Below are positions 28,855-54,075 of a stretch of 64,000 bases of DNA, piece after piece. The stretch is from Rhodobacterales bacterium. GTDB taxonomy: Bacteria; Pseudomonadota; Alphaproteobacteria; Rhizobiales; Stappiaceae. Location of the stretch: the NCBI GenBank assembly GCA_008107755.1, contig VIRH01000065.1, forward strand, positions 1-64,000, written 5' to 3'. The position numbers and the translations under genes are program-made. Every line of letters starts with the position of its first letter. Positions within the stretch are counted from its first letter, which is position 1. The notes under the pieces are model-generated. The model made no database searches. It saw only the letters and a program-made list of their open reading frames with translations, and was not told the DNA's origin.

Positions 28855-28906
28855 CTAGAGCCCACCCCGTTGGCGTTCATATAACGTGGCAAGAGAAGGA
28901 CAGTCG

Positions 28907-35291: not shown

Positions 35292-36005
35292 ATGACAGAT
35301 CGAAGTATTCCGGTCGATGAGTCGAGCCCGACCATCGCAGGTGCGAAGCCCGCGCGAAAAAAGGGGCGCCGCCGACCAGGCCGTCCTTGTGAAGACAGGG
35401 ACATGCGCGAAGCAATCCTTGACAGTGCCCAGATCATTTTCGCCGAGAACGGCTTCGCCGGCGCGCGACTGCGCGACATCGCGGCTCTGGGTGATGTCAA
35501 TCAAGCGCTGATCAACTATTACTTTCAGTCAAAACAGCAGCTGTTTGACGAGGTGTTTCGGCGTCACGGTTTCATGATCACGGAACAGCGCGAAAAATTG
35601 CTCGACGGCCTTTTGGCTGGCGGCCGGCAGCCGACTGTAGGCGAGCTGGTGACTGCATATCTGAAACCGCAGTGGGATATGAAATACAGCGGCCCGGGCG
35701 GTGCGGCATTTGTCAAGTTGCAAGCAAGATTGCATGCCCAACCCGAAGAGCAGTCGATCCGGCTTCGTCGTGAGGTCTATGACCGCTCGACGAAGCGCTA
35801 TCTCAAGGCCTTGTGCCTGGCGCTGCCCCATCTGACGGAACGTACGGTCAGCCTCCGCATGGCCTTCATGATCGGAACTTATCTCTTCATGCTGAATGAT
35901 CTCGGCCGTATTGACGACTTGAGCGACAATCGGGTTTCGGAGGTCGGAAAGGCCGAGATGATGGACAATCTCGTGCTTTTTCTAAGCGCCGGCCTTCAGG
36001 CATAA
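35292..36005 (+). CDS. TetR-family transcriptional regulator
   Basis: A 237-residue TetR-type repressor. Residues about 37-83 form the DNA-binding domain (REAILDSAQIIFAENGFAGARLRDIA, then QALINYYFQSKQQLFDEVF), preceded by a basic tail KKGRRRPGRP; the C-terminal part is an all-helical ligand domain. It precedes the maleate isomerase gene in the same direction by 114 bp. The 24-bp dyad at 36065-36088 lies in that gap and is its most likely operator. It may therefore control the lower pathway (nicE-nicD-nicX-nicF) separately from the MarR regulator at 48696. Confidence 0.88.
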   Translation: MTDRSIPVDESSPTIAGAKPARKKGRRRPGRPCEDRDMREAILDSAQIIFAENGFAGARLRDIAALGDVNQALINYYFQSKQQLFDEVFRRHGFMITEQREKLLDGLLAGGRQPTVGELVTAYLKPQWDMKYSGPGGAAFVKLQARLHAQPEEQSIRLRREVYDRSTKRYLKALCLALPHLTERTVSLRMAFMIGTYLFMLNDLGRIDDLSDNRVSEVGKAEMMDNLVLFLSAGLQA

Positions 36006-36064
36006 ATCGACAAATCTGAGCAATCGAGGATTGAGGGCGATGGGCTCGGCGCAAATGGAGGCTT

Positions 36065-36088
36065 GTAATTAATCAGAATTTTAATTAC
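36065..36088. promoter_or_regulatory. Putative TetR operator before the lower pyridine pathway
   Basis: Perfect 8-bp arms GTAATTAA and TTAATTAC flank an 8-base centre, 32 bp before the maleate isomerase ATG. The length and spacing fit TetR-family operators. It is distinct from the TATACTGTATA motif used elsewhere in the cluster. Confidence 0.6.
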
Positions 36089-36119
36089 GGATGTTCGTGA
36101 CAGCAAGCGGAGATCCGTC

Positions 36120-36869
36120 ATGAACGCATTTCGTGTAGGCCAGATAGTTCCGAGTTCAAACGTCACGATGGAGACCGAGATTCCGGCGTTGCTGACAATG
36201 CGAAGCAGCGTCCATCCTGAGCGTTTCACCTTTCATTCCTCCCGCATGCGGATGAAGAAGGTCACCAGCGAAGAGCTGAAGGCGATGGACGCGGACAGCG
36301 ACCGCTGCGCGCTTGAACTCAGCGACGCGCGCGTCGACGTTCTCGGCTATGCCTGCCTGGTGGCGATCATGTCCATGGGCCACGGATATCACCGTAAATC
36401 TGCTGAACGGTTGAGCGGAGTGACCAGGGACAACAACGCCGAAGCGCCCGTGATCACGTCAGCCGGGGCGCTGGTGGACGGGCTGCATGCGATGGGCGCG
36501 AATCGCATTGCGCTGGTCGCTCCCTATTTGAAGCCACTGACCGAGATGGTCGTCGATTACATCAGGGCCGAAGGTATCGAAGTAGTCGTCTGGAAGGCGT
36601 TGGAAATTCAAGACAATCTGGATGTTGCCGCCCATGACCCGATGAGACTGCCAGGCATAGTGGCCGAGATGGACACCGCTGACGTCGACGTCGTTGTGCT
36701 TTCTGCCTGTGTCCAGATGCCATCTCTTCGCGCGGTTCCGATGGCCGAGGCGGTTACGGGCAAGCCGGTCGTGACTGCTGCCATCGCCACCACTTGGGCA
36801 ATTTTGAAGGCTCTGAACCTCGACACACTGGTTCCCGGCGGCGGTGCGCTGCTGTCCGGCCAATACTGA
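36120..36869 (+). CDS. nicE: Maleate cis-trans isomerase
   Basis: A 249-residue Asp/Glu racemase-superfamily protein of the maleate isomerase type (NicE/MaiA). The two catalytic cysteines are seen at Cys79 (GYACLVA) and Cys197 (SACVQMPS), with an N-terminal PSSNVTMETE block. It converts maleate to fumarate, the last step of 2,5-dihydroxypyridine catabolism. It heads the run nicE-nicD-nicX-nicF. The short gaps and the TAATG overlap of nicD and nicX indicate an operon. Confidence 0.92.
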   Translation: MNAFRVGQIVPSSNVTMETEIPALLTMRSSVHPERFTFHSSRMRMKKVTSEELKAMDADSDRCALELSDARVDVLGYACLVAIMSMGHGYHRKSAERLSGVTRDNNAEAPVITSAGALVDGLHAMGANRIALVAPYLKPLTEMVVDYIRAEGIEVVVWKALEIQDNLDVAAHDPMRLPGIVAEMDTADVDVVVLSACVQMPSLRAVPMAEAVTGKPVVTAAIATTWAILKALNLDTLVPGGGALLSGQY

Positions 36870-36879
36870 GGGTTTCGTC

Positions 36880-37689
36880 ATGCAACATGGATACAATGTT
36901 CACGCTAACGGCATTCGCCAACACCTGGTCAGGCATTCAGGACCCGGACCTGAGATGCTCTTGATACCCGGGATCACGAGCCCGGCGGTCACCTGGGGGT
37001 TCGTTGCGGAGCGTTTGGCCGAGCGCTTCGATGTGCATGTGCTTGACGTTCGTGGACGGGGGCTGAGCCAGGCGGGAGATCTGGACTATTCGCTTGACGC
37101 GATGGCGGATGACGCTCTGGCCGTAATCGCGGCTGCAGATCTGAAGGAACCCGTAATTCTCGGGCATTCGATGGGTGCACGCATAGCGATCCGGGCGGCT
37201 CGCAAGGATGCATCCTGCCTCGGAGGACTTATCCTGGCGGATCCGCCGGTGAGCGGACCGGGGCGTCGTGAGTATCCATCCAAGTGGCCGTGGTATCGCG
37301 ACTCGATCGACATGGCGATCAAAGGCTGTTCGGGAGCGGATATGCGCGCCTTCTGTCCGACCTGGACGGAAGAGCAGCTGGCGCTGAGGGCGGAATGGCT
37401 TCACAGCTGTCAGCCCGATGCAATCAAGATCGCTTTCGACGGTTTTCATACCGACGACATACACGCAGATCTGCCGCACCTGGGCCTCCCCATGCGGCTT
37501 GTCGTGGCAGGCGGCGCGCCGGTCATCGCCGCCGAAGACGAGGCCGAGATCAGGAAACTCGCCCCGCATATCGAAACCCGCACTGTCGAGGGCGCGGGGC
37601 ACATGATCCCTTGGGACGATCTCGAAGGGTTTCTTGCCGCTGTAATGGATTTCGAATGCGAGCAGCGCAATCATGAAGGGGTAGCGTAA
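36880..37689 (+). CDS. nicD: N-formylmaleamate deformylase (alpha/beta hydrolase)
   Basis: A 269-residue alpha/beta hydrolase with LLIPGITSPAVTWGFVAERL near the N-terminus, nucleophile GHSMGA (Ser97) and late GAGHMIPWDD (His). The N-terminal block is that of NicD, which removes formate from N-formylmaleamate to give maleamate. ATG at 36880, ten bases after the nicE stop, is chosen. It overlaps nicX by TAATG. Confidence 0.9.
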   Translation: MQHGYNVHANGIRQHLVRHSGPGPEMLLIPGITSPAVTWGFVAERLAERFDVHVLDVRGRGLSQAGDLDYSLDAMADDALAVIAAADLKEPVILGHSMGARIAIRAARKDASCLGGLILADPPVSGPGRREYPSKWPWYRDSIDMAIKGCSGADMRAFCPTWTEEQLALRAEWLHSCQPDAIKIAFDGFHTDDIHADLPHLGLPMRLVVAGGAPVIAAEDEAEIRKLAPHIETRTVEGAGHMIPWDDLEGFLAAVMDFECEQRNHEGVA

Positions 37690-38720
37690 TGGATCAGGCA
37701 AGCTTCACAGAGATTTGCCTACATCAGTTGAAGATGTCGGGCGTCCACGAAGGCGAAAAATTGATCGTTCTGACCCAGGGTAATGAACGCATCGACTATG
37801 CTGACGCCTTCATGGCAGCGGGAGCGCGGCTAGGTGCTTCCATGTATCACATGCGTCTGCCTGCACCTTCAGCGATGGGGGGCTGGAACGTCGGTGTGAC
37901 CGGCCTTGCCGCAATGCCAGACGCCGTCGAAGCTCTGAAGGCCTGCGACATGTTGATCGACTGCGTCTTTCTCCTGTTCTCGCCCGAACAGTTCGCCATT
38001 CAGGCCGCCGGGACGCGTATACTGACTGCAGTCGAACCGCCGGAGCTGCTGGCAAGGATGCTGCCGAGCAAGGAGCTGCGCGAGAAAGTTGAAATCGGTG
38101 CCGAGTATCTGGCAAAGGCCAAGACGATGCGGATCACGTCCAGGCACGGAACCGATGTGATCTACAGGCTGAACACCTATCCGACGGTCGCTGAGTATGC
38201 ATGTACCGACGAGCCCGGCCGCTGGGACCACTGGCCGTCAGGATTTGTCTTCACCGGTGGCGACGATGATGGTGTCGACGGTCAGATCGTCGTGGCACCG
38301 GGTGATATACTGCTGCCGCAGAATATTTATGTCCGTGAGCCTATCACCTATACCATTGAAAAGGGCTTCATCACTGACATGCGCGGCGGCGTGGATTGCG
38401 AATTGGTCAAGTCCTACATGGACAGTTTCAACGACGAACGCGGCAAGGGAATGAGCCATGTTGGCTGGGGGATGAACCCGAACGCCAAATGGCATCGTAT
38501 GGTGCCCGGTGAATTTCCTGGCGGCATGGGCATGGAGCCACGCAGTTTTTATGGCAACGTAATGTTCTCGACGGGCCCCAACAACGAACTTGGCGGTCCC
38601 AACGACACCGCGTGTCACCTCGATATACCGATGCGCAACTGCTCGCTCTTCCTTGACGATGAACCAATCGTGCTCGATGGCGATCTGGTTGTGAAGGAAA
38701 TGCAGATGGAACGCCACTGA
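37689..38720 (+). CDS. nicX: 2,5-dihydroxypyridine 5,6-dioxygenase
   Basis: A 343-residue ring-cleavage dioxygenase of the NicX/PicD family, structurally related to M29 aminopeptidases rather than to classical extradiol enzymes. Candidate Fe(II) ligands are His257 (GMSHVGWGM), His310 and Asp312 (CHLDIP). The 53- and 2-residue spacing equals that of the His265/His318/Asp320 set described for Pseudomonas NicX. It opens 2,5-dihydroxypyridine to N-formylmaleamate. It is the diagnostic gene of this cluster. Confidence 0.93.
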   Translation: MDQASFTEICLHQLKMSGVHEGEKLIVLTQGNERIDYADAFMAAGARLGASMYHMRLPAPSAMGGWNVGVTGLAAMPDAVEALKACDMLIDCVFLLFSPEQFAIQAAGTRILTAVEPPELLARMLPSKELREKVEIGAEYLAKAKTMRITSRHGTDVIYRLNTYPTVAEYACTDEPGRWDHWPSGFVFTGGDDDGVDGQIVVAPGDILLPQNIYVREPITYTIEKGFITDMRGGVDCELVKSYMDSFNDERGKGMSHVGWGMNPNAKWHRMVPGEFPGGMGMEPRSFYGNVMFSTGPNNELGGPNDTACHLDIPMRNCSLFLDDEPIVLDGDLVVKEMQMERH

Positions 38721-38745
38721 ACCATTTGCTCGGGGAGGTCTCGAA

Positions 38746-39366
38746 ATGAGCCAGGAAGAAATCTACATGGCGGCAGGTTTCGGTGCACCGGTTCCCCGAG
38801 GCTCTAAACCCGCGCTTATCGTGATCGATTTTAGCTACGGCTTCACCGATACGACCTATCCTACGGCCTCTGAAGCTGGCGACCAGATTGCGGCCACCAA
38901 CCGTTTGATCACGCTGGCGCGCGTGAAACATGTTCCGGTGATCTTCACCGTCATCGCGTTTAACAAAGCCGAACAGGATGCTCTGCCCTGGCTCAAGAAG
39001 GCTACGGGGCTGAAGGCCCTCGAAGAGGGGAGCCGGCTCGTCGAGGTCGACGGGAGGCTTGACCGAGCGCCCGGCGACGCCGTTGTGGTCAAGAAGGGCG
39101 CCTCGGCATTCTTTGGTACCAATCTCTCAGCCCACCTGACCGGGGCCGGGGTGGATACGGTCATAATGACCGGTGCGACGACGTCCGGTTGTGTCCGAGC
39201 CTCTGCCGTAGACGCAGTGCAAAGCGGCTTCAACGTCCTCGTAGTCGGTGACGCCTGCGCAGACCGGGCACAACCTCCTCACGATGCAGCTCTGTACGAC
39301 ATCGGCCAGAAGTACGGCGATGTCATCGATGCGGTGGAAGGTTCATCCTACCTGAAAAGCATTTGA
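38746..39366 (+). CDS. nicF: Maleamate amidohydrolase (isochorismatase family)
   Basis: A 206-residue cysteine amidase of the isochorismatase fold: catalytic Asp28 (VIDFSYGF), Lys117 (VVKKGASAF) and Cys149 (TTSGCVRAS). It matches NicF/PicF, which hydrolyses maleamate to maleate and ammonia. It is 25 bp after nicX, behind a GGGAGG ribosome site, and ends the first transcriptional block; a new promoter/operator follows before picC. Confidence 0.92.
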   Translation: MSQEEIYMAAGFGAPVPRGSKPALIVIDFSYGFTDTTYPTASEAGDQIAATNRLITLARVKHVPVIFTVIAFNKAEQDALPWLKKATGLKALEEGSRLVEVDGRLDRAPGDAVVVKKGASAFFGTNLSAHLTGAGVDTVIMTGATTSGCVRASAVDAVQSGFNVLVVGDACADRAQPPHDAALYDIGQKYGDVIDAVEGSSYLKSI

Positions 39367-39469
39367 CCATCGGATGGGCAACGCTGAATCGCCCCTGATC
39401 TTCCAGACGACGCTAGCTGAAAAGGGAATTGCGGGTCCGGTCGTGCCGACCGATTGCGAGTTCCGGCGG

Positions 39470-39503
39470 TTGCGTCTTGTTAGAAAGGGGGTATACTGTA
39501 TAT
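39470..39503 (+). promoter_or_regulatory. Promoter of picC with embedded TATACTGTATA operator
   Basis: TTGCGT (39470-39475) and TATACT (39492-39497), 16 bp apart, form a plausible promoter. The -10 is the left half of GTATACTGTATAT (39491-39503), a palindrome about its central T. The same -10-in-operator layout recurs at 49337-49369. The MarR regulator at 48696-49214 is the likely binder. Confidence 0.65.
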
Positions 39504-39524
39504 CTAGTTTCCGGGGGAATATGC

Positions 39525-40505
39525 ATGACACCCAAGATCACTTTTGAAGAGCATTTCATGGCGCCGGGCTTCGAGAAATACTCGGAGGCATTTCTCAAGC
39601 TCATACCCCGCGATCAGGCCGAAATTCTCACCAGGCGGCTGGGCGATTTTGATGGCGAACGGATCGAAATAATGGATCGCGCCGGCATCACGCGGTCCAT
39701 CATTTCGCTCACTGGACCAGGCGCGCAAGGCGAAGTCCCGGAAAACGCCGCGAATGCTGCCAAAGGCGCAAATGACTTTCTTGCCGAAAAAATAGCGAAA
39801 AACGCAGACCGCCTCGGCGGTCTCGCAACGCTGCCGATGCACGATCCCGAAGCGGCGGCCCGTGAACTCAATCGCTCCGTTTGTGAGCTGGGTTTTCAAG
39901 GATGCCTCGTCAACAGCCACACCCACGGTGTCTATTACGAAGGCCCGGAATATGATCCCTTCTGGTCCGAGGTCGAGAGGCTGGGCGTGCCGTTTTACCT
40001 CCACCCTTCAAACGCGTATGTCACGCCGCATGTTCTAGGCGGCATGCCGGTCATACAGGGCGCGACCTGGGGCTGGGGCGTCGAGACCGGCTCACACGCG
40101 CTTCGTATCCTTTTTGGCGGCGTCTTCGACCGGTTTCCGAAACTTAAACTGGTGCTTGGCCACATGGGCGAGGCGTTGCCGTTCCTGCGCTGGCGTTACG
40201 ACAGCCGTTTTCAGGCCTATCCCATGGGCGTCTCGCTGGACCGTGCACCCTCGGCCTATTTCGGCTCCAACATCCTCATCACGACATCCGGTGTCTGTTC
40301 GCATGCCTCCCTGATGGGCGCGATCGGCGAGATGGGAGAGGACGCCGTCATGTTCTCCATCGACTATCCATATGAGGACACCGACCTCGCCGTGGAGTTC
40401 ATTGAAACCGCGCCACTTGACGAGGCAATGCGAGCGAAGGTCTGCCATGACAACGCTGCCCGGCTCTTCGGACTGCCCACGCTGTCAGAAAGAGATGGGT
40501 ATTGA
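39525..40505 (+). CDS. picC: Amidohydrolase-2 family decarboxylase, PicC-like
   Basis: A 326-residue metal-dependent decarboxylase of the amidohydrolase-2 / ACMSD family. Seen are N-terminal FEEHF, a mid-protein YLHPSN histidine, GHMGEALPF and the late FSIDYPYED aspartate, the expected metal and catalytic positions. The start is ATG at 39525 with GGGGGA seven bases upstream. In the Alcaligenes pic pathway, PicC of this family decarboxylates 3,6-dihydroxypicolinate to 2,5-dihydroxypyridine. Its place between nicF and a Rieske hydroxylase gives it the same role here. Relatives act on gamma-resorcylate or uracil carboxylates, so the substrate rests on context. Confidence 0.85.
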   Translation: MTPKITFEEHFMAPGFEKYSEAFLKLIPRDQAEILTRRLGDFDGERIEIMDRAGITRSIISLTGPGAQGEVPENAANAAKGANDFLAEKIAKNADRLGGLATLPMHDPEAAARELNRSVCELGFQGCLVNSHTHGVYYEGPEYDPFWSEVERLGVPFYLHPSNAYVTPHVLGGMPVIQGATWGWGVETGSHALRILFGGVFDRFPKLKLVLGHMGEALPFLRWRYDSRFQAYPMGVSLDRAPSAYFGSNILITTSGVCSHASLMGAIGEMGEDAVMFSIDYPYEDTDLAVEFIETAPLDEAMRAKVCHDNAARLFGLPTLSERDGY

Positions 40506-40506
40506 G

Positions 40507-43308
40507 ATGGACTGGTTCAAAACGGTAAAAGCTTCAACGGTTCTGGATGAAGGCTCTGTGGCAACCGAGGTCGACGGGTTGCGGGTCGCACTCTGGGCCG
40601 TCGATGGTGAAATTTACGCCACGGGCAACATTTGTACCCATGCCTTCGCCTATCTGACCGATGGCCACGTCGAGAACGGCTGCGTCGAATGCCCGCTGCA
40701 TCAGGGCTTGTTCGATATCCGCTCAGGCAAGGCACTGCGTGCGCCGGTGAGCAAGGATCTCGCCACATTCGCGGTAAAGCAGGAAGACGGATACGTCTGG
40801 ATCGATGTGAATACGCCCGGTCCCAAATCTGAAGCCTCCCCGGCTGTCACCAGCGCGATCGGCACTGATGACCGCACATTGGTGGTCGTCGGTGCGGGGC
40901 AGGCGGGCGCTGAAACTGTAATCGCGCTGCGTAAACTTGGTTTCGGCGGACGTATCGTGATGGTCGGTGCAGAACCGCATCCCCCCTATGAACGACCATC
41001 GCTGTCCAAGGGTCTGCTTCTGGGCAAGAGAAAACTTGAGGATGCTCTCGTTTTCGAGCCTGATCAGGCCGAGGAGCTGATGCTCGATCTCAAGCTCGGG
41101 GCCACTGTCGTTGCGATCGAGACAGAAGACAAGACCATCACTCTGGAAGGCGGAGAAAGTCTCGCCTACGACATTCTGATCCTTGCAACAGGTGCTCGTC
41201 CACGCGAACTCGAATGCACCGGTTCGGACAATACCGAGATACACTATCTGCGCGATCTGGGAGATGCCGAGCGGCTCGGCGGGGCTTTGCGCAACGCAGG
41301 AAAAGTTGCCATCGTCGGCGGCGGATTCATCGGGCTGGAACTCGCATCAGCTGCCCGCAAACTCGGCGCGGAAGTGACCGTGATTGAGGCTCAATCGCGG
41401 CTCATGACGCGGCTTCTGCCAGCTGGCCCTGCCAATCATCTCGCTGACATTGCCCGTGAAAACGGAGTTGAGATCGAACTGGACGCTCACATTATCAACG
41501 TGAGTGACAAGGGCGTCGGTCTGAGCGACGGGCGCGTGATCGAGGCCGATTGTATCATCGCAGGCATTGGTGCAGTTCCGAACGATGATCTGGCCGGGCC
41601 GGCGGGTATCAGGACGGCAGAGCGTGGTGGCATCATTGTCGACATGGTCAGCCGGACGAACCTTCCCGGCGTCTATGCCGTTGGCGACGTCGCTGTGCGC
41701 CAGGACCATTCTGATGGCCCCATGCTTCGGATGGAAAGCTGGCAAAATGCCCGCCTCAGCGCCGAACGTGCCGCTCGCCACATTACGAAGCTCAATCCGG
41801 GCGCAGAAGATGACCCGTGGTTCTGGTCCGATCTCTTTGACATCACAGTTCAGATATTCGGTCACGTCAACGCTGACATGCCGGTTGTTCGCCGCGACGG
41901 CGAGGAGGCCCCGGTCTTCATGGCACAGGACGCAATCGGACGTGTCAGATGTGTGATCGACTTTGGCGATCCCTCCGCGTTGCGGGAGGCAAAAACGCTG
42001 ATGGCCGATGGACAGCCGCTTGCCGCCGATGGATCGGGTGCGCGCAATAGTGAGGAGGACGACATGAAGCATCAACCTATCGAAAGCAGGTTCGTCTGGC
42101 CGACCGACGGCCTCGTTAGTGTGCCCGACTGGGTGTATACCGACAAAGAAATCTACGACCGTGAAGTAGAGCGTATCTTTCACGGACGGACCTGGAATTA
42201 CGTCGGGCTTGAATGCGAAGTACCGAGTCCCGGCGATTTCATTCGCTCATATGTCGGACCCACACCGGTTGTTGTATCTCGCGACGAGGACGGCGAAGTC
42301 CACGTATTCGAAAACCGTTGTTCGCACCGCGCCGCCGAATTTTGCCGCGAGCTTCGCGGGAACGCGAGTGAATTCGTATGCCCCTATCATGAGTGGAGCT
42401 ATGACCTGAAAGGCAATCTTGCCGGAGTGCCGTTTCGGCGGGGAGCCAATGGAGCCGGCGGAATGCCGACTGACTTCAATCCGGCCGATCACGGGCTTTG
42501 CAAGCTCAATGTGGCGCGGCGAGGCGGCGTTGTCTTCGCCTCCTATTCCGATGATGTGGAAAGCTTCGAAGACTATCTCGGGGACGAGATGCTCAAGGAT
42601 TACGATGCCGTTTTTTCGGGCCGGAAACTCAAGCTCCTGGGCCATTACCGCCACACGATCATGGGTAACTGGAAGCTCTATCCAGAGAATCTCAAGGACC
42701 CTTATCACGCCACGTTGCTGCATACGTTCCTTGTTACCTTCGGCCTGCTCGTGGCTGGCAACAAATCTGCGATGATCTGTGACCCCAAGGGTCGCCATTC
42801 GACCATGGCATCCGCCAAAAGTGACAAGGCCGTCTCCGAAGACAACAAGAAGGAAATGCGTGCCTACCGTGACGGCATGAGCCTGTCGGATAAACGCCTC
42901 ATGGACTTTGTGCCGGAATTCGACAGCCCCTGGTCCGTCACCATGCAGGTGGTCTGGCCTAATCTGATTGTCCAGCGCGAGATGAACACACTTGGTGTGC
43001 GTCAGATCGTACCCAACGGTCCGAACGAGTTCACGATGATCTGGACGATGTTTGGCTATGAGGACGATGACGATGAGATGACGCGCCACCGTCTGCGACA
43101 AGGCAATCTTATGGGCCCTGCCGGTTACCTCGGGATCGAGGACAACGAGGCAATCAAGTTTGTGCAAGACGGTATGCTGAACTCCACGCCGGCTCGACAC
43201 ACGGTGCAGCTTGACCCGGACGTTCCTGCCGGGACATCCGAAACGCTGATTTCCGAGGCAGCCATTCGTGCACTCTATCAACACTGGCGTGAGGAGATGG
43301 GCCTCTGA
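40507..43308 (+). CDS. Rieske hydroxylase: ferredoxin-reductase-oxygenase alpha in one reading frame (PicB-like)
   Basis: One open frame of 933 residues holds three modules. Residues 1-105: Rieske ferredoxin (C43-x-H45 ... CPLH62-65). Residues 120 to about 505: ferredoxin reductase with FAD motif VVVGAGQAGAE and NAD motif VGGGFIGLE near 270. From residue 520: oxygenase alpha subunit with Rieske CSH...CPYH and mononuclear iron site DPYHATLLH, very like salicylate 5-hydroxylase large subunits. A strong internal ribosome site and ATG precede the third module, so the alpha subunit may also be made alone. ATG at 40507, one base after the picC stop, is chosen; ATG 40495 is an alternative. The predicted job is C3 hydroxylation of 6-hydroxypicolinate. 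Other bacteria use separate components. Confidence 0.85.
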   Translation: MDWFKTVKASTVLDEGSVATEVDGLRVALWAVDGEIYATGNICTHAFAYLTDGHVENGCVECPLHQGLFDIRSGKALRAPVSKDLATFAVKQEDGYVWIDVNTPGPKSEASPAVTSAIGTDDRTLVVVGAGQAGAETVIALRKLGFGGRIVMVGAEPHPPYERPSLSKGLLLGKRKLEDALVFEPDQAEELMLDLKLGATVVAIETEDKTITLEGGESLAYDILILATGARPRELECTGSDNTEIHYLRDLGDAERLGGALRNAGKVAIVGGGFIGLELASAARKLGAEVTVIEAQSRLMTRLLPAGPANHLADIARENGVEIELDAHIINVSDKGVGLSDGRVIEADCIIAGIGAVPNDDLAGPAGIRTAERGGIIVDMVSRTNLPGVYAVGDVAVRQDHSDGPMLRMESWQNARLSAERAARHITKLNPGAEDDPWFWSDLFDITVQIFGHVNADMPVVRRDGEEAPVFMAQDAIGRVRCVIDFGDPSALREAKTLMADGQPLAADGSGARNSEEDDMKHQPIESRFVWPTDGLVSVPDWVYTDKEIYDREVERIFHGRTWNYVGLECEVPSPGDFIRSYVGPTPVVVSRDEDGEVHVFENRCSHRAAEFCRELRGNASEFVCPYHEWSYDLKGNLAGVPFRRGANGAGGMPTDFNPADHGLCKLNVARRGGVVFASYSDDVESFEDYLGDEMLKDYDAVFSGRKLKLLGHYRHTIMGNWKLYPENLKDPYHATLLHTFLVTFGLLVAGNKSAMICDPKGRHSTMASAKSDKAVSEDNKKEMRAYRDGMSLSDKRLMDFVPEFDSPWSVTMQVVWPNLIVQREMNTLGVRQIVPNGPNEFTMIWTMFGYEDDDDEMTRHRLRQGNLMGPAGYLGIEDNEAIKFVQDGMLNSTPARHTVQLDPDVPAGTSETLISEAAIRALYQHWREEMGL
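42052..42066 (+). promoter_or_regulatory. Internal ribosome-binding site and start codon for the oxygenase alpha module
   Basis: GAGGAGG at 42052-42058 lies five bases before ATG 42064, whose product (MKHQPIESRF, 414 residues) is a normal-length alpha subunit. Directly upstream, in the minus-one frame relative to the fusion, stand tandem stops TAG (42048) and TGA (42051). This is the layout expected between two separate genes, so independent translation of the alpha subunit is likely. Confidence 0.65.
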
Positions 43309-43862
43309 TGCGAGAACTGAGACCGACGCTCGACAAGAGCCTGAAGGACGTGAAAGGGACGCTTGTTCGTGCCAGGGATCCTGCGTACCGGGAAGCAAAG
43401 CACGAGGTCGAGGCCTTCAATGCGGCTTATTGCGCGGTGCTCGACGATGGCGATCTGGAGGATTGGCCCGAGTTCTTTACCGAGGACGGCTTTTACAACA
43501 TCGTTAGCCGTGAAAATTTCGACTATGGGCTGCCCGTCGGCCTGGTCTATTGCGAAGGCAAGAACATGATGAGGGACCGCGCGTTGGCAATCGCCAAGAC
43601 CTCCATGTTCGGTCCGCGCTATCTGCGTCACTACATGACCAACACCCGCATATCCGAGATCGGCGAAAACGGTATGATCAGGGCCGAGACCAACTACATG
43701 TTGATTGAGGTTCTTTCCGAATTGCCGTCGGGTCGCATACATCAGGCTGGACGAATGCAGGATGTGTTTGAAACGCAGGACGATGGCAGGCTGCTGTTGA
43801 AATCCCGAGTTGCCATCTACGACACGCTTCTGGTGCACAACGCGCTGGTGCTTCCAGTCTAG
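43308..43862 (+). CDS. Rieske hydroxylase small (beta) subunit
   Basis: A 184-residue NTF2-fold beta subunit: HEVEAFNAAYCAVLDDGDLEDWPEFFTEDGFYNI and RYLRHYMTNTRI are typical. It starts within the alpha stop (TGATG), ensuring coupled translation. It forms an alpha-beta hexamer with the oxygenase module and has no cofactor. Its TAG stop is part of the CTAG at the border of MITE copy 2, so the element inserted exactly at the gene end. Confidence 0.9.
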   Translation: MRELRPTLDKSLKDVKGTLVRARDPAYREAKHEVEAFNAAYCAVLDDGDLEDWPEFFTEDGFYNIVSRENFDYGLPVGLVYCEGKNMMRDRALAIAKTSMFGPRYLRHYMTNTRISEIGENGMIRAETNYMLIEVLSELPSGRIHQAGRMQDVFETQDDGRLLLKSRVAIYDTLLVHNALVLPV

Positions 43863-44124
43863 GGTGTGGACCCATAAAGTTGAGCTTTGAGGTCGACCGG
43901 GAAATGATCGTATTCAAGGCGCGAAATCGCTGGGAACCCCTCAGGTTTTCAAGGTTTCGCAACGCGGAAGACGGTCATTTCCCGGTCGATCCGAAGGACG
44001 CCAATCCGGCTGCGGAGAGCCGCGTCAAAGCCCTTGCACCATGCACCGGCATGGTTCTGCAGGCTTTTCCTCGCTCTCCTTTGCCGGATTGACGCCGCAA
44101 AACTCAATTTTATGGGTCCACACC
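43863..44124 (-). mobile_element. 262-bp MITE-like element, copy 2 (inverted)
   Basis: Same length as copy 1 at 28593-28854 and inverted relative to it. The ends are GGTGTGGACCCATAAA and ATTTTATGGGTCCACACC, flanked by CTAG on both sides. The two copies agree closely over the about 180 bp next to one end and differ in the remainder. It separates the convergent beta-subunit and picA-like operons and carries no gene. Confidence 0.85.
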
Positions 44125-44153
44125 CTAGGCTGCGCAAACGACAGACGACAAAA

Positions 44154-44183
44154 AGAACCCGGACGCACCTACGTCCGGGTTCT
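44154..44183 (-). terminator. Rho-independent terminator of the picA-like operon
   Basis: A perfect 12-bp stem, AGAACCCGGACG and CGTCCGGGTTCT, with a six-base loop; on the minus strand it is followed by TTTTTGTCG. It lies 15 bp beyond the stop of the 44199-45374 gene. Confidence 0.85.
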
Positions 44184-44198
44184 CTGTGCTGCAGGTGA

Positions 44199-45374
44199 TC
44201 AATTCCAGCGGAAAAGCGATTTCAGTCTGCCGCCTACCATCGCACGAATAATGGCAAACGGGCTGATCCCCCGGCTCTCGCGAACTTCGCCGCCCGACAG
44301 AACGGAATCGCAATTGGCTACGAATTCGCCCAGGATGTAGTCGACGAAACCGTTCACCAACTCGGGTCGATTGAACTGGCCGAGCATCCCCTGGATGCGA
44401 AAGCGAAGTCTCACGTCGACGATCGAGGCTTGCGGATCCCCCGATGCGGGCCGAATGATGTAACTCAGTTCGCCCTCAACGGCCGATTGTCCGCCGCGGT
44501 CCTTGCCGCGTCCTGCCACCGTTCCGGCGCGGCTCTCATTGTCGGTGTTGTAGGTGCCTTCTCCCTCGAACTTCGCCGCAATAGGGCCAAAGGCCACTCC
44601 GATATGGCCGGCGAACGTGCTGTCGTCATGCTCTGAAAGGGTTGCGCCCGGCAAACACTCCGCCACTGCCTCGAGATCAGAGAAGTGCTTCCAGACCATC
44701 GTGGGCGAATGCCTCAGGTTGACCTCGCGTTTGACGACCGACCAGCCATTCTCAATGGTCACCGTCCCCGAGGAGACGTTCGCCGCGGCGGGTCTATCGG
44801 AAATTGCGGCCTCGAAGGGTGAAAATCCGGTTGTCTCCGGACGAGGGCTGCGCGGCTTGCCCGTTGCCGCAATCCCGAGCGCCTTTCGCTCGTCGATCAC
44901 CTGCGCAATGGCTGCAACGATCCCGACATAGCCTGTGCAACGGCAGAGATTGCCCGAAAGTTCGTGGCGAATGCGCATCTCGTCGGGTTCTTCGAGCCGT
45001 TCGACGAGATCGCGCGCTGTCGCCAGCATTCCCGGAGTGCAGAAGCCACATTGCAGTGCGTGATTGGTCCGGAAAGCGACGCGCAGCCGGTCCATCAGGT
45101 TGTCGCCCTTGTAGCCTTCGATGGTTTCGACGGTTGCCCCCTCGCAGGACGCGGCGAACATCAGGCAGGATCGCGTCGGCTTGCCGTCCACCATCACGGT
45201 GCACGCGCCGCAGACACCTTGCTCGCAGCCCAGATGGGTTGCGGTGAGATCAAGATGTTCGCGCAGAATATCGGCAAGCTGAGTGCGGGGCTCGACGGTG
45301 ACGGTCTCGCTTCGGCCATTGACGGTGAGGCACACCGTCTGCATGGAGGTGGCGGAAGCGACGGGAGCATTCAT
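44199..45374 (-). CDS. Molybdenum hydroxylase small subunit fused to CoxG-like domain (PicA component)
   Basis: A 391-residue fusion. Residues 1 to about 170 are the two-cluster 2Fe-2S subunit (CEQGVCGACTVMVDG; CGFCTPGML; LCRCTGYVGI). Residues about 215-360 are a CoxG/SRPBCC domain (VVKREVNLRHSPTMVWKHFSD, ECLPGATLSEHDD, FEGEGTYNTDNE), ending in a hydrophobic tail. CoxG is normally a separate protein that anchors or matures CO-dehydrogenase-type enzymes. The gene overlaps the FAD subunit by four bases. Together the three genes should encode picolinate 6-hydroxylase; the substrate is assigned by cluster context. Confidence 0.87.
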   Translation of the reverse strand: MNAPVASATSMQTVCLTVNGRSETVTVEPRTQLADILREHLDLTATHLGCEQGVCGACTVMVDGKPTRSCLMFAASCEGATVETIEGYKGDNLMDRLRVAFRTNHALQCGFCTPGMLATARDLVERLEEPDEMRIRHELSGNLCRCTGYVGIVAAIAQVIDERKALGIAATGKPRSPRPETTGFSPFEAAISDRPAAANVSSGTVTIENGWSVVKREVNLRHSPTMVWKHFSDLEAVAECLPGATLSEHDDSTFAGHIGVAFGPIAAKFEGEGTYNTDNESRAGTVAGRGKDRGGQSAVEGELSYIIRPASGDPQASIVDVRLRFRIQGMLGQFNRPELVNGFVDYILGEFVANCDSVLSGGEVRESRGISPFAIIRAMVGGRLKSLFRWN

Positions 45375-46192
45375 GGGATGACCTTTGCGATGGCACGCGA
45401 AAGCGCAGTCTTGAGGAGCTGGCGCTTGACGCGATCCGCACCGGGCAGATGGGCGGCGAGCGCAGCATCTATTTCCTCCAGTGCGGGTCGCTTCGCCGTT
45501 CTTGCGATCGCCCGCGCGATGTCGTTGAGCAAGATCGGCGGGCCTTCCGTTGCGCCAGCAACGACCCGGGCGTATTGAAGTCCCGGATGTATCACGATGG
45601 CGCCGATGGCATCGGCAAACTCACCGACCTTGCGGCAGATCTTTTCGTAGCCCCAGTGCGCCTCGCCCATCGCGGCGGAAATTTCCACGCCAACAATGAT
45701 CTCGCCGGGCTGCAGTTTCGTGCGATAGGCACCTTCCATGAAGCCGGACATCGGCTCTCGCCGCTTTTTTTCGCGACCATTGGCGATTACCAACACGGCA
45801 TCAAGCACGGTCATCGCCGTGACCCAATCCGCTGCCGGATCGGCATGAGCGAGGGACCCGCCAAGCGTGCCCTTGTTGCGGACAGCTCGATAGGCAATGT
45901 TGCGTGCCACATGTCGGAGCATTGGCGGCAAGTCGACATCGCTGTCACCGTCTTCGATCTGCGCATGTGTCACTCCTGCGCCAATGAAGAGCGTGGCGCC
46001 ATCAAGACGGACACTCCGCAATTCGGTCAGATGGGAAAGCCCGATCAGTGTCGAAGGTCGTGCCAGGCGCAGATTAAGCATTGGGCCAAGCGACTGGCCG
46101 CCTGCAATCAGCTTTGCATTGTCTGCGTCAAGCGCGCTGGAGATCTCGGTCAGCTTTGCAGGGCGACTATGAGCGAAAGGGACAGGCTTCAT
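45371..46192 (-). CDS. Molybdenum hydroxylase FAD-binding subunit (PicA component)
   Basis: A 273-residue CoxM-like FAD subunit: KLIAGGQSLGPMLNLRLA near residue 30 and NKGTLGGSLAHADPAADWVT near 100 are the two flavin motifs. ATG at 46192 is chosen because it overlaps the large-subunit stop by ATGA; the frame is open much further upstream only as an antisense shadow of that gene. It relays electrons from the 2Fe-2S subunit to the respiratory chain or another acceptor. Confidence 0.9.
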   Translation of the reverse strand: MKPVPFAHSRPAKLTEISSALDADNAKLIAGGQSLGPMLNLRLARPSTLIGLSHLTELRSVRLDGATLFIGAGVTHAQIEDGDSDVDLPPMLRHVARNIAYRAVRNKGTLGGSLAHADPAADWVTAMTVLDAVLVIANGREKKRREPMSGFMEGAYRTKLQPGEIIVGVEISAAMGEAHWGYEKICRKVGEFADAIGAIVIHPGLQYARVVAGATEGPPILLNDIARAIARTAKRPALEEIDAALAAHLPGADRVKRQLLKTALSRAIAKVIP

Positions 46193-48540
46193 TCCGCCGC
46201 CTCCCTGGTGCTGGCGTCCTGCGCCATGAATATAGCCTCGAGGATGCGCCGGGGCGTTGCCGGAATGCTTGTCAATTCCGCGCCAAGCGGGCAGAGGGCA
46301 TCGTTTATCGCGTTGACGATCGCACCGCTCGGCGCGATGGCGGCGCCTTCGCCCACACCCTTGATTCCGTGGCGAGTATGGGGCGAAAGGGTTTCGGAGT
46401 GCCCGAGGCGGAACGACGGCAATTCTGCTGGGCCGGGCAGGATGTAGTCCGCCAGCGTTGATGTCAGCGGCTGTCCGGCGGAATCGTAGATCACCTCCTC
46501 GAAAAGCGCCGTGCCGATACCCTGCGCGGCGCCGCCGTAGGATTGTCCGTCCAGAATCAGTGGATTCACCCGGCGGCCGCAATCCTCGAAGATGACGTAG
46601 TCCTGTATCTCGACCTTGCCTGTCGCGATGTCGACCTCGACCACGGCGGCATGGGTGGCGTACGTGAACACACCTGTGTCGATATCGGGTTTGTACCCTT
46701 CCGTGACTTCAAGGCCCATTGTGTTCACGTTCTCCGCAAGCATATCGGGGCGCAAATACCAGGCCTGCGCAATCTGCTTCAGGCTCACAGAGGCGGCTCC
46801 GCAAAACACCGCGCCATCTTTCAGTTCTGTTTCTTCACGATCGCATTGCAGCAGGTGCGCTCCGATCGCGCGTATTCGAAGGGAAAGTTCTTCTGCTGCC
46901 TTGGAGACCGCCCCACCGGCCATCACCATCCCGCGCGAGGCATAAGCTCCGGTTGAATAGGGTGTCATGCCGGTATCACCCATGGTGACTTTGATCTGTT
47001 CGATGTCCACCGACAGCCATTCGCTGGCGACCTGGGCGATGGTTGTTTCGAGTCCCTGGCCGAAAGAGTGGTTACCCGATTTGACCTCAACCGACCCGGT
47101 CGGTGCGAGTTTTACCATCGCCTGCTCATATCCGGGAACAAGCGCCAGTCCCCAGGACGCGAAGACTTTCGTACCGTGCGCCGACTGCTCGGTGAAAGAG
47201 GAAAAGCCGATCCCCAGATAGCGGCCCTCCTTTTCAGCCGCCTGTTTGCGTTTGGAGAATCCGGCCACGTCGATCATTCTTGCGGCCTGACGCGCCGCCT
47301 CCGGATAGTCGCCGGTATCGTAGTATTTTCCGGTGATGTTTGTGTAAGGCATGGCACTGCCGTGAACGAGATTGATCTCGCGCACCTCAAGCGGGTCACG
47401 GCCGACGGCGCGCGCGATGGCATCGATCGTCAGTTCCATCGCGAAGCAGACTCCGGGTCGTGCGACACCACGATAAGGCGTGAAGCCGGGCTTGTTCGTG
47501 GCGACGGAATGGGTGCGGCAGGCATAGGCGCCGATGTCATAAGGGCCTGGAAGGTTGCCGCCTGCCTGAGCCGCCTCGAGACAGGCGGTGAAAGGCCAGA
47601 CCGAATACGCTCCGACGTCGACCCAGATGTCGGCGTCCAGCCCGAGCAAGCGTCCGGTATCGTCGGCATAGGCGGTTAACTTGTATTTGTGCTCCCGAGT
47701 GTTGGCGCCCGCGGTGAGGTGCTCGCGGCGATCCTCCGTCCAGCGGATCGGTCTGCCGGTGGACCGCGCAAGCCATGACACGACCAGCTCTTCGCACTGA
47801 AGCACGCATTTGTAACCAAAGCCTCCGCCCACATCGGGTGCGATAACTCTCACGTCGCCCTGATCAAGCTGCAAGCATTGAGCAATTCCCGTGCGGATCA
47901 GGTGTGGCACCTGGGTCGAGGTGTAGACGACCAGCTGATCGGCTTTGCCGTCCCAGAAGGCCAGTGTTCCCTTGCCCTCCATCGGCACCATGCACTGCCG
48001 TGCGGTTGTGTATTCACGCTCGATCACCACGGTGGCCTGTGCCCGCGCGTCCGACAGGTCACTGTCAAATTCCGTACTGAGAAACAGGTTGTCGGGCCAA
48101 TCGTCATGCAGGCGCGCGGCCTCCGGGGCGAGGGCGGATTCCACACCGACATGCACTGGCAACGGGTCCAGCTCGACAATAACCGTTTCGGCCAGGTCCT
48201 CGGCTTCGGCACGCGTGGGGGCTATGCACACGGCAATGCATTCGCCGGCAAAACGCACCTTGCCTCGGGCAAGCGCGGGATGATCTGAGGTCTTGTAACT
48301 TGGAAGGCTGGATTCAGCACGGATCGGCAGCAGATCGACCATGTCGTCGACCGTGAACACACGCCCCTCTGCACCGTCGGGTATTCTGATGGATCGAATT
48401 CGCGCATGGGCGAGGGGGCTACGCACGAATGCCGCCTCCCAGCAGCCTTGCATCTTGATGTCGCCCACGAACTGTGCCGTTCCGCGCAGATGCCGACTGT
48501 CTTCCTTCCGCGGGATGCGTGCGCCGATGCCGGTGTTCAT
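46189..48540 (-). CDS. Molybdenum hydroxylase large (molybdopterin) subunit (PicA component)
   Basis: A 783-residue CoxL-like subunit. Motifs include VGGGFGYKC, YRGVARPGVCFAMEL, SFGQGLETTIAQVA and the catalytic-Glu block GIKGVGEGAAIAPSG near the C-terminus. It is the first gene of the minus-strand operon, starting 155 bp from the divergent MarR gene. In Alcaligenes the PicA enzyme converts picolinate to 6-hydroxypicolinate; the complete downstream pathway here makes that role likely. It is unrelated in gene order to the fused hydroxylase at 12481-15255. Confidence 0.9.
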   Translation of the reverse strand: MNTGIGARIPRKEDSRHLRGTAQFVGDIKMQGCWEAAFVRSPLAHARIRSIRIPDGAEGRVFTVDDMVDLLPIRAESSLPSYKTSDHPALARGKVRFAGECIAVCIAPTRAEAEDLAETVIVELDPLPVHVGVESALAPEAARLHDDWPDNLFLSTEFDSDLSDARAQATVVIEREYTTARQCMVPMEGKGTLAFWDGKADQLVVYTSTQVPHLIRTGIAQCLQLDQGDVRVIAPDVGGGFGYKCVLQCEELVVSWLARSTGRPIRWTEDRREHLTAGANTREHKYKLTAYADDTGRLLGLDADIWVDVGAYSVWPFTACLEAAQAGGNLPGPYDIGAYACRTHSVATNKPGFTPYRGVARPGVCFAMELTIDAIARAVGRDPLEVREINLVHGSAMPYTNITGKYYDTGDYPEAARQAARMIDVAGFSKRKQAAEKEGRYLGIGFSSFTEQSAHGTKVFASWGLALVPGYEQAMVKLAPTGSVEVKSGNHSFGQGLETTIAQVASEWLSVDIEQIKVTMGDTGMTPYSTGAYASRGMVMAGGAVSKAAEELSLRIRAIGAHLLQCDREETELKDGAVFCGAASVSLKQIAQAWYLRPDMLAENVNTMGLEVTEGYKPDIDTGVFTYATHAAVVEVDIATGKVEIQDYVIFEDCGRRVNPLILDGQSYGGAAQGIGTALFEEVIYDSAGQPLTSTLADYILPGPAELPSFRLGHSETLSPHTRHGIKGVGEGAAIAPSGAIVNAINDALCPLGAELTSIPATPRRILEAIFMAQDASTREAAE

Positions 48541-49369: not shown

Positions 49370-49476
49370 AAAATAAGGGGCAAAGCTGGCATGATACCCA
49401 TATTGCAGATTGTGGGGTGCGCGCATTGCGTGATGCCTCGGGGCAGTAGTTGTTTTATCGGCGGGAGGGCTGTTTG

Positions 49477-50340
49477 GTGACGCTCTTCCTGCAGTTCTTT
49501 TTAACCGGGATCGTGACCGGCTCGTTTCTCATACTCGCTACCATCGGGTTCTCATTCACCCGTCGCGTGGAGGGGTTTCTCAACATAGCCCATGCCGAAT
49601 TGCTCGGCGTCTCCGCATTCACCACCTGGGGGCTGAATGTGCTTCTGGGTTGGCATGTCGTTGCTGCGGCGATTGCGGGTATTGTCTTCACCGCTTTCCT
49701 GGGTCTGGCGATCGGGCGAATTGTCTATGATCCCATACGAAGGCTGGGTCCATCCGTTCTGCTGATCACCTCGGTTGGTGTTGCCTATGCGATAGGCGGC
49801 ACGGTGGACGCGCTGGTCGGCACGGGGATTCGGACGCTCGATATTCCACTCGCCACCAGCTATCGCTTTGCGGGTCTTCGGATCACCGATTATCAGATGA
49901 TCGTCGTAGCGTTCGCGGTTATCGCCACCGGCGCATTGGCGTTGTTCCTGAACAAGACGTCCATGGGTCTTGCCATCCGGGCAATTTCCGCCAATCCGGA
50001 ATTGGCTGCCTCGCGCGGGATTGACGTAAAATCCACCTCGCGGATCACCTGGTTGATTTCGTCAGGCCTGGCGGGTCTGGCCGGCGTCATGCTCGCCGTG
50101 GTGGCAACGCTATCGACCGACATCGCATTTCACCAGATCCTCCAGATCCTCGCCGTGGCCATCCTTGCCGGGCTGGGGTCGCTCTATGCGGTGATCGCAG
50201 CAGGTTTGATCGTCGGTGTTGCGATGGATGTATCGGTTTTCTGGATCCCAGCCGGCTACCGACCGCTGATTGCCTTTGCGGTGGTCATACTGGTGCTGCT
50301 CTTCCGTCCCGAGGGACTTGCAGGAAGGAAATCCCGATGA
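49477..50340 (+). CDS. livH: Branched-chain amino acid-type ABC permease LivH
   Basis: A 287-residue permease: SFLILATIGFSFTRRVEGFLNIAHAELLG near the N-terminus and AISANPELAASRGIDV (LivH EAA-type loop) in the middle, with about eight hydrophobic segments. GTG at 49477 has GGGAGGG seven bases upstream. It overlaps livM by four bases. It is the first gene of the importer operon controlled from 49337 and belongs to the picolinate cluster by position and operator. Confidence 0.88.
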   Translation: MTLFLQFFLTGIVTGSFLILATIGFSFTRRVEGFLNIAHAELLGVSAFTTWGLNVLLGWHVVAAAIAGIVFTAFLGLAIGRIVYDPIRRLGPSVLLITSVGVAYAIGGTVDALVGTGIRTLDIPLATSYRFAGLRITDYQMIVVAFAVIATGALALFLNKTSMGLAIRAISANPELAASRGIDVKSTSRITWLISSGLAGLAGVMLAVVATLSTDIAFHQILQILAVAILAGLGSLYAVIAAGLIVGVAMDVSVFWIPAGYRPLIAFAVVILVLLFRPEGLAGRKSR

Positions 50341-51260
50341 CTTTTTCTTCTCTGATCCTGACGACGCTTACCTTTGGTGCGATGTTCTCGGTCCTGACGT
50401 TGTCGCTGAACCTTCAATATGCGCGCGGCGGCATGATCAACTTCGGAACAGTGGCTTATTTTGCCTCTGGAGCATATGCGTATGCCATCTTCACGCAGGA
50501 CCCTCCAAGCGGCCTTGATCAATATGCCTTCGGCTTGGGATTGCCCTGGTACGTCGGCTTTCTGGCCGCTGGCGTCGCATCGCTCCTCTTCGCCCTGATC
50601 ACTGGCTGGCCGACCTTGCGGTTGAGGGGGGAGTATCTGGCGCTGACGACTTTTGCATTTGCCGAAGTCCTGCACTCGTTCCTCCTGAACGAACGGCGGA
50701 TCGGCAACGGAAGCGTGGGCTTGTCCAACGTCGAACGTCCCGATCCCGCGTTGATCGGTGTTAACGACATGTTGGCCTACGCCATCGCCGCAGTCGCACT
50801 GATGTTGATGACAGCATTCTTCTTTCACCGCCTGTTGAACTCACCGTTCGGTCGCACCGTCGACGCCGTTCACGACGACGAAACAGCGGCACAAGCTATC
50901 GGCAAGGATGGGGCTCGCATCAGGCTGCAGGTGTTCGTTCTGTCTGCGATACCAATAGGATTTGCCGGCGCGCTCTATGCCATGATCACGACCCTTGTGG
51001 CACCCGCCATGTTCACTGCCGAACTGACGTTTTTCGTATGGATTGCGCTCGCGCTCGGAGGGCAGAAGACAATCCTGGGAGCCATCCTGGGAACTCTTGC
51101 TCTTGTGTTTTTTCAAGAGGCAGTCGGCGCGATCCCGTTCGAGTCCGTGCGTGCCGCGCAGATCGCGGCATCAGTCGAAGAAGTGGTCACCGGCATCTTG
51201 TTCATCATCGTGCTGCGCTGGCAGCCCTGGGAACGATTTTCGCGGAGGACGAAGGCATGA
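50337..51260 (+). CDS. livM: Branched-chain amino acid-type ABC permease LivM
   Basis: A 307-residue permease: LNLQYARGGMINFGTVAYFASGAYA, WPTLRLRGEYLALTTFAFAE and the loop FGRTVDAVHDDETAAQAIGKD are LivM hallmarks. It overlaps livH and livG by four bases on each side, so it is fully coupled. It pairs with LivH as the second pore subunit. Confidence 0.9.
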   Translation: MTFSSLILTTLTFGAMFSVLTLSLNLQYARGGMINFGTVAYFASGAYAYAIFTQDPPSGLDQYAFGLGLPWYVGFLAAGVASLLFALITGWPTLRLRGEYLALTTFAFAEVLHSFLLNERRIGNGSVGLSNVERPDPALIGVNDMLAYAIAAVALMLMTAFFFHRLLNSPFGRTVDAVHDDETAAQAIGKDGARIRLQVFVLSAIPIGFAGALYAMITTLVAPAMFTAELTFFVWIALALGGQKTILGAILGTLALVFFQEAVGAIPFESVRAAQIAASVEEVVTGILFIIVLRWQPWERFSRRTKA

Positions 51261-52715: not shown

Positions 52716-52764
52716 GGCCGCCGACCGGAAACTGCCGGTCTGAAATCAACAGGAGAACAGCCAT

Positions 52765-53976: not shown

Positions 53977-53985
53977 CACCTGAAA

Positions 53986-54014
53986 GGGGTCGCCGGATAA
54001 CGGCGGCCCTTTTT
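53986..54014 (+). terminator. Rho-independent terminator after the Liv-type importer operon
   Basis: GGGTCGCCG and CGGCGGCCC form a nine-pair stem (one G-T pair) with a five-base loop, followed by TTTTT. It lies 10 bp after the binding-protein stop and isolates the TRAP genes downstream. Confidence 0.85.
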
Positions 54015-54075
54015 CGTTATGCCACCTGTCATCACAACCTCTGCGACCCGCAATAACGAGTAAGGAGGATTTGCC

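Follow-up and report, generated by a model that had tools for sequence, protein, structure and literature searches.

Rieske oxygenases usually draw on separate proteins for electron transfer, and the locus described here raises the question whether a natural enzyme of this kind can carry these partners in its own polypeptide. In the 64,000 nt stretch of contig VIRH01000065.1 that we analysed (the window; Rhodobacterales bacterium, assembly GCA_008107755.1), a plus-strand frame at 40507..43308 is open across 933 codons and joins a Rieske ferredoxin, a glutathione reductase (GR)-type ferredoxin reductase and an oxygenase alpha subunit. The best explanation in our view is a one-chain enzyme, accompanied by free alpha from a nested start, that performs the PicB step of picolinate degradation. 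For this reading as a whole we estimate a probability of roughly 0.6.

Three Modules in One Open Frame

The 933 aa product was assigned by its open frame, the order of its Pfam domains and its homologs. Pfam places Rieske_2 at residues 2-99, Pyr_redox_2 at 125-416, Reductase_C at 438-508, Rieske at 562-644 and Ring_hydroxyl_A at 714-931. The AndAb/HcaC-like ferredoxin module (residues 2-99, 40510..40803, plus strand; PF13806) scores 102.5 bits on NF041683 (cut-off 150) and matches the naphthalene dioxygenase ferredoxin (PDB 2qpz) at 1.1e-24. It is followed on the same strand by the reductase module (residues 125-508, 40879..42030; PF07992, PF14759), which is of the flavin adenine dinucleotide (FAD)/NADH type and scores 322 bits on the HcaD model (cut-off 450) and 261.4 bits on the AndAa model (cut-off 650); its closest solved structure is PDB 1d7y (1e-61). 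A linker (42031..42096, plus strand), predicted to be disordered and hypervariable across the 32 fused loci described below, leads to the AndAc/NagG-like alpha module (42064..43308, plus strand), to which Pfam, the nested start and PDB 7c8z all point and which is likely also made as a free alpha of 414 aa. Alpha reaches 423 bits on the AndAc model NF041684, below the curated cut-off of 750, and its closest solved relative is the large component of salicylate 5-hydroxylase (PDB 7c8z, 3.1e-127 over residues 11-413). The oxygenase beta subunit is a separate plus-strand gene (43308..43862; PF00866; 125.5 bits on the AndAd model, cut-off 230), the start of which overlaps the alpha stop (TGATG, 43306-43310).

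To assess the active sites, we compared the window protein with 29 further fusion proteins chosen from the best 120 of 642 protein matches. Invariant in all 30 are the ligands of the ferredoxin Rieske centre (C43/H45 and C62/H65) and of the alpha Rieske centre (C605/H607 and C625/H628; PF00355), the iron-site motif D731-P-Y-H734...H739 with D888 (PF00848), and the key glycines of both Rossmann motifs. From the motif as generally described we take D888 to be the third iron ligand. Alpha Rieske centre, mononuclear iron site and beta subunit, as expected of an alpha-beta type Rieske non-haem iron oxygenase, are thus all present. The usual separate electron-transfer components, which are not strictly required for this type, are instead found in one frame in 32 loci. 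As encoded, this is the layout of a self-sufficient oxygenase, in which a single chain unites flavin reductase, iron-sulphur carrier and catalytic domain, and it is maintained within its clade.

The original prediction, made from the window sequence, had placed all three sets of motifs in one uninterrupted frame with only beta separate, and both points were borne out. We regard it as almost certain that ferredoxin, FAD/NADH reductase and the catalytic alpha of a Rieske ring-hydroxylating monooxygenase are translated as one chain. The electron relay inside this chain, as originally proposed, is plausible. Exclusively separate products of 55 and 46 kDa, which the prediction had named as the opposite outcome, are unlikely because no stop codon terminates the ferredoxin-reductase part. 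An AlphaFold2 (AF2) model of the chain, based on 30 alignment rows (predicted template modelling score, pTM, 0.48) and not used for distances, is confident for the reductase. Both joins (residues 108-117 and 507-529) have a predicted local distance difference test score (pLDDT) below 50, in line with tethered modules.

Occurrence of the Fusion in Other Genomes

All of the best 120 of the 642 protein matches have the same layout (933-972 aa, 96-100% query coverage, 53-85% identity), and the database names they bear include FAD-dependent oxidoreductase, apoptosis-inducing factor 3 and anthranilate 1,2-dioxygenase large subunit. At the DNA level 32 distinct fused loci were collected, the window included, each an open three-module frame. 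The search for this architecture in other genomes that the prediction had suggested thus returned the same open frame in 31 further loci. This strongly supports the view that the triple fusion is an encoded and evolutionarily maintained protein.

On a Paracoccus seriniphilus plasmid (locus L041) the fused frame is open for 989 codons. RefSeq nevertheless splits off its alpha (15567-16814 of L041) from the inner ATG, and a second database entry of this species is a 937-aa fusion.

Within the host family the fused locus occurs in 1 of 87 genomes, that of the host itself; the other 86 have no match at 1e-150, which argues against vertical inheritance within the family. Because a single genome of the family carries the fusion, recent horizontal transfer into this host is likely. 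In the host class fused loci were present in 6 of 385 genomes in a first draw and in 5 of 389 in a second (all already known), and in the phylum in 3 of 398. Groups around carriers gave 5/14, 4/4, 16/391, 5/46 and 1/258 genomes with fused loci, and the search around genome G173 gave 0/4; these searches were centred on carriers, and their counts are not unbiased frequencies. One scan of viral contigs, relevant to a viral origin, found no relative.

A Start Signal at the Reductase-Alpha Join

The boundary of the alpha module carries a conspicuous start signal. In the window, a Shine-Dalgarno (SD) sequence AGGAGG (42053..42058, plus strand) lies 5 nt before the ATG at 42064 and, with -12.2 kcal/mol, is the strongest among 49 internal ATG and GTG codons. 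Across the 32 loci the linker is 44-62 aa long and hardly alignable, and its best in-frame ATG or GTG has an SD energy between -5.9 and -12.2 kcal/mol. For 22 loci, a start of equal strength and in frame is found in at most 5% of equal-length segments elsewhere in the same gene. The comparison of ATGs alone comprises 31 loci, since L085 has no linker ATG; L017 and L060 have a weak ATG but a strong GTG. The mean SD energy is -8.4 kcal/mol at the 31 linker ATGs versus -2.8 at 661 other internal ATGs, a difference that persists when each of 14 lineages contributes a single value (Mann-Whitney 1e-9; P values here assume that loci or lineages are independent, which holds only partially). SD strength is also specific to the start codon, with a mean of -8.8 versus -1.6 kcal/mol at other linker codons, and is unmatched within the linker in 20 of 32 loci.

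RNA structure follows the same pattern. From -25 to +25 the folding energy is -8.3 kcal/mol at the 31 linker ATGs versus -14.6 at 630 other internal ATGs and -14.3 elsewhere in the same linkers, the start being less folded in 30 of 31 loci (L082 is the sole reverse case). The ferredoxin-reductase join was used as a control. There, 11 of 32 loci lack an in-frame start of negative energy and 5 reach the 5% mark; for the window, where the best in-frame start has -3.3 kcal/mol, the predicted lack of an internal start at this join holds. At the protein level, 113 of the best 120 of 642 fusion proteins carry a Met no further than 30 residues ahead of the alpha anchor, in most cases at a distance of 14, 11 or 9. 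Taken by lineage, the Fisher p is 5e-4 for codon resampling with the protein held fixed and 1e-7 for the comparison with other ATGs, so the signal resides partly in the amino acids (EE-D-D-M) and partly in codon choice.

Inside the open frame there is therefore a start that recurs across loci, in frame, with an SD and little RNA structure, though it is weak in L041 and L059; SD, spacing and low structure together are what a used start would be expected to show. It is quite probable that the nested start at the alpha boundary makes free alpha. Since nothing stops a ribosome arriving from upstream, use of the ferredoxin start would necessarily yield the long chain as well, and the gene most likely makes both products. 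The single 933-residue chain of the original prediction thus stands as an encoded and maintained protein, whereas the picture of a single product is probably incomplete in view of the strong start at the alpha boundary.

Phylogeny and a Second Architecture

An alpha tree of 70 rows, built with a quick method, placed all 32 triple fusions in one clade of 41 rows that is nested among separate-gene alphas (Shimodaira-Hasegawa-like approximate likelihood ratio test, SH-aLRT, 98). The same clade was recovered with 100/98 in a mixture-model tree thinned to 53 rows (17 dropped, mostly near-copies). Besides the triple fusions it holds 5 ferredoxin-alpha fusions and 4 separate alphas. The triple fusion undergoes four label changes on the tree, which fit one gain and three losses, although such counts cannot tell gain from loss; L063 has a long branch and its placement is unsure. 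Wherever in the clade the reductase lies directly before alpha, the frame is open (32 of 32 loci); the fused set had been picked by openness, and no reductase-bearing clade member was left out. No reductase match was seen for L092, L094, L095 and L063 in an upstream stretch of about 1.5 kb or less.

Relatives in Variovorax and Caballeronia have separate genes in the same order, ferredoxin-reductase-alpha-beta. Caballeronia sp. SBC2 appeared fused by tblastn but was rejected as a fusion, as stops lie between its three frames. Its ferredoxin, reductase and alpha stand in one frame, divided only by one stop codon each, so that the step to a fusion is short. The Bordetella alphas (L005, L006, L047, L048) were considered for a comparison with published PicB; they had no PicC match in the contexts seen and serve only as an outgroup.

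Ferredoxin-alpha without reductase is a second architecture that is also common. In L089, L090, L091 and L093 the ferredoxin is joined straight to alpha with no reductase between them, and L088 is a ferredoxin-alpha fusion cut by the contig end. An alpha-only protein search, the length limit of which excludes triple fusions, yielded 6431 matches; among the best 120, 103 have 110-250 residues ahead of the alpha anchor and 101 carry the ferredoxin family PF13806. The four of these fusions checked in full read Rieske-Rieske-Ring_hydroxyl_A. No reductase homolog was seen within 7-13 kb around five ferredoxin-alpha loci.

Neighbouring Genes and Likely Substrate

The fused gene is preceded on the plus strand by genes for a TetR-type regulator (35292..36005; PF00440, PF17939), a maleate isomerase-like protein (36120..36869; PF17645; a 78% identical homolog in Paracoccus seriniphilus is annotated as ndpH maleate isomerase), an N-formylmaleamate deformylase-like alpha/beta hydrolase (36844..37689; PF12697; role suggested by context), a NicX-like 2,5-dihydroxypyridine 5,6-dioxygenase (37689..38720; sole PDB match 7cn3, 1.2e-94), a maleamate amidohydrolase-like isochorismatase with a presumed role in the pathway (38746..39366; PF00857), and a PicC-like decarboxylase of the amidohydrolase 2 family (39525..40505; PF04909; PDB 2dvt, gamma-resorcylate decarboxylase, 4.7e-70). 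Downstream, on the minus strand, are the three subunits of a molybdenum hydroxylase: 2Fe-2S with a C-terminal CoxG domain (44199..45374; PF01799, PF00111, PF06240), FAD (45371..46216; PF00941) and a PicA-like large subunit (46189..48540; PF20256, PF02738).

According to PMC10142695, the pic route runs from picolinate via 6-hydroxypicolinate (PicA), 3,6-dihydroxypicolinate (PicB) and 2,5-dihydroxypyridine (PicC) on to fumarate, with picA1A2A3 and picB1B2B3B4 clustered. All family types of such a cluster lie within 35292-48540: molybdenum hydroxylase, monooxygenase, PicC decarboxylase and the set leading from 2,5-dihydroxypyridine to fumarate. The neighbours thus make up an apparently complete picolinate pathway, in which the fused gene with beta is the only PicB candidate. 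Four named plasmids have the same set but separate ferredoxin, reductase, alpha and beta genes; the isomerase was not seen on the two Variovorax plasmids among them. We consider it likely from this context that the enzyme catalyses the PicB step, the 3-hydroxylation of 6-hydroxypicolinate to 3,6-dihydroxypicolinate; PicB would then be a Rieske enzyme. Of 16 contexts of fused loci (9-31 kb), 14 showed a molybdenum hydroxylase large subunit and 7 a PicC homolog; some members of the family may therefore act on a different substrate.

Some further features of the region were recorded. The 2Fe-2S-CoxG fusion looks general, with matches to residue 357 or beyond of 391 in 10 of 13 matching loci. A branched-chain-amino-acid-type ATP-binding cassette (ABC) transporter and a tripartite ATP-independent periplasmic (TRAP) binding protein adjoin the cluster (49450-55143) and may serve picolinate uptake; similar ABC genes occur in the Variovorax and Paracoccus clusters. 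Directly after the beta stop lies a 270 bp element resembling a miniature inverted-repeat transposable element (MITE; 43861-44130), TA-flanked and with inverted ends of more than 30 nt, its edge straddled by the stop codon TAG. A second copy, 88% identical, is found on the opposite strand at 28588-28856.

Proposed Mechanism and Alternatives

We propose that the full chain and free alpha both combine with beta to form an oxygenase built on a trimer, presumably alpha3beta3, and that only a fraction of its alphas would bear the ferredoxin-reductase arm on a flexible tether. Electrons would pass from NADH to FAD, to the tethered Rieske ferredoxin, to the alpha Rieske centre and on to the mononuclear iron of a neighbouring alpha. 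In Rieske oxygenases, which form C3 oligomers, the Rieske centre of one subunit passes its electrons to the iron of a different subunit (PMC12445004). One arm could therefore serve a whole trimer, and free alpha would relieve crowding. There is about an even chance that self-sufficient Rieske oxygenases of this kind form a widespread natural class, each encoded by a nested gene that would give chain and free alpha and hence mixed hexamers whose ratio of reductase arms to active sites is set genetically, while the same clade also tried the leaner ferredoxin-alpha form.

Several observations weigh against this proposal. Ten of the 32 loci miss the 5% mark: L017, L061, L079, L080 and L099-L102 at 7.7% to 25%, and the nearest fused relatives, L041 and L059, by far more, as 44% and 35% of control segments are as strong as their weak SD (-5.9). 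Codon resampling gave values of at most 0.05 in only 7 of 32 loci, five of them near-copies, and Glu-rich linkers favour SD-like codons. A Met stands at the same place in 96 of 103 ferredoxin-alpha fusions, so Met alone is unspecific. At the control join, L073, L078, L083 and L084, which are four of the five loci at the 5% mark there and all of one lineage, have a strong SD start (-9.8 to -11.9 kcal/mol), possibly a second inner start giving a third nested product. Finally, the catalytic domain of the AF2 model is poor (pTM 0.48). The weak SDs of L041 and L059 would also suit a single product, with the arm on every alpha and the start-like signal a relic of an unfused ancestor, where separate-gene relatives have their true alpha start, or an inter-domain ribosome pause site. 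Ribosomes can be slowed by SD-like sequences, which would fit such a pause, and 4 of 5 ferredoxin-alpha fusions have only a weak inner SD, which suggests that a fused alpha can do without an inner start. A relic should, however, decay as the linker turns over, whereas most loci have retained the start, its spacing and the low structure, and a pause site does not need an ATG at SD distance; we consider a single product rather unlikely. It is less probable again that the long chain acts as electron donor only, docking through its own alpha domain, while free alpha and beta catalyse. In 24 of 31 loci (2 tied) the inner SD is stronger than the SD of the ferredoxin start, so free alpha may be in excess. 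Against this, the motifs of both metal sites show no variation in the fused chain, but the same codons also encode free alpha, and the invariance cannot tell the two readings apart.

The same fusion might also act on another substrate, hydroxylating salicylate, anthranilate or another heteroaromatic acid, and lie beside the pyridine genes by chance. Salicylate 5-hydroxylase is the best solved relative, AndAc the best NCBIfam model, and PicC was not seen in 9 of the 16 fused-locus contexts, which again counts against our reading. The AndAc cut-off is missed (423 of 750 bits), however, and the window gene is flanked by a PicC-like decarboxylase and its own beta gene within a picolinate set that is complete in all other respects, a set that the four plasmids keep with unfused components (isomerase not seen in two). 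We therefore judge another substrate unlikely, though it deserves some weight. An artefact, in which a missed stop or an assembly frameshift joins separate genes, could invoke the separate RefSeq annotation of the Paracoccus seriniphilus alpha. The Paracoccus DNA itself is open, as are the frames of all 31 further loci, of which it is one, and the best 120 of 642 homologs agree, so independent genomes refute an assembly or sequencing error, the probability of which is negligible, as well as a chance open frame.

Comparison with Known Systems

The one-chain enzyme with nested free alpha can be set beside several known systems. The picB1B2B3B4 6-hydroxypicolinate monooxygenase of Alcaligenes faecalis JQ135 and Bordetella bronchiseptica RB50 is four-part and clustered with picA1A2A3 and picC, as with the similar neighbours here; it has four genes instead of a fusion plus beta, and we liken it by description, PicB not being stated to be Rieske in the available part of the source (PMC10142695). 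Anthranilate 1,2-dioxygenase AndAaAbAcAd (NF041682-NF041685) matches in all four component types, AndAb-, AndAa-, AndAc- and AndAd-like, but every component falls below its family cut-off (102.5/150, 261.4/650, 423/750 and 125.5/230 bits), and three of them form one chain here. PDB 7c8z, the closest solved relative of alpha, is an alpha-beta Rieske monooxygenase that we take to be NagG, which adds an OH para to the existing OH on a ring acid. NagG presumably works with separate ferredoxin and reductase proteins, while in the window gene both are fused ahead of alpha.

According to a 2025 perspective, a self-sufficient Rieske oxygenase has yet to be identified, and artificial construction is suggested instead (PMC12445004). 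Among the titles and abstract openings searched, which mostly did not extend to subscription journals and are no proof of absence, none described a Rieske oxygenase fusion that occurs in nature. The individual parts have been described before; the triple-fusion architecture and the nested start are apparently new. As sought-after biocatalysts, Rieske oxygenases suffer from their dependence on separate redox partners with poor coupling, and a natural candidate for a self-sufficient version is present in public genomes under other names. The nested start suggests a design rule, namely that the bulky arm is not needed on every alpha, and makes partner ratio and O2 uncoupling directly testable.

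In layout, a parallel is offered by self-sufficient P450s such as CYP116B46, which reportedly has three redox modules in one chain. That enzyme is a haem P450, its reductase said to contain flavin mononucleotide (FMN), whereas the window gene encodes a non-haem Rieske oxygenase whose beta subunit is separate, and likely gives a second product. For the nested start, cyanobacterial CcmM offers an analogy, as its long and short forms (M58/M35) come from one gene via an in-frame internal start, though this carboxysome protein is unrelated. Engineered Rieske oxygenase fusions, in which a redox partner is linked to the oxygenase, have reportedly been made by Runda et al. in 2024; those are artificial, whereas the fusion in the window is natural, conserved and equipped with a nested start.

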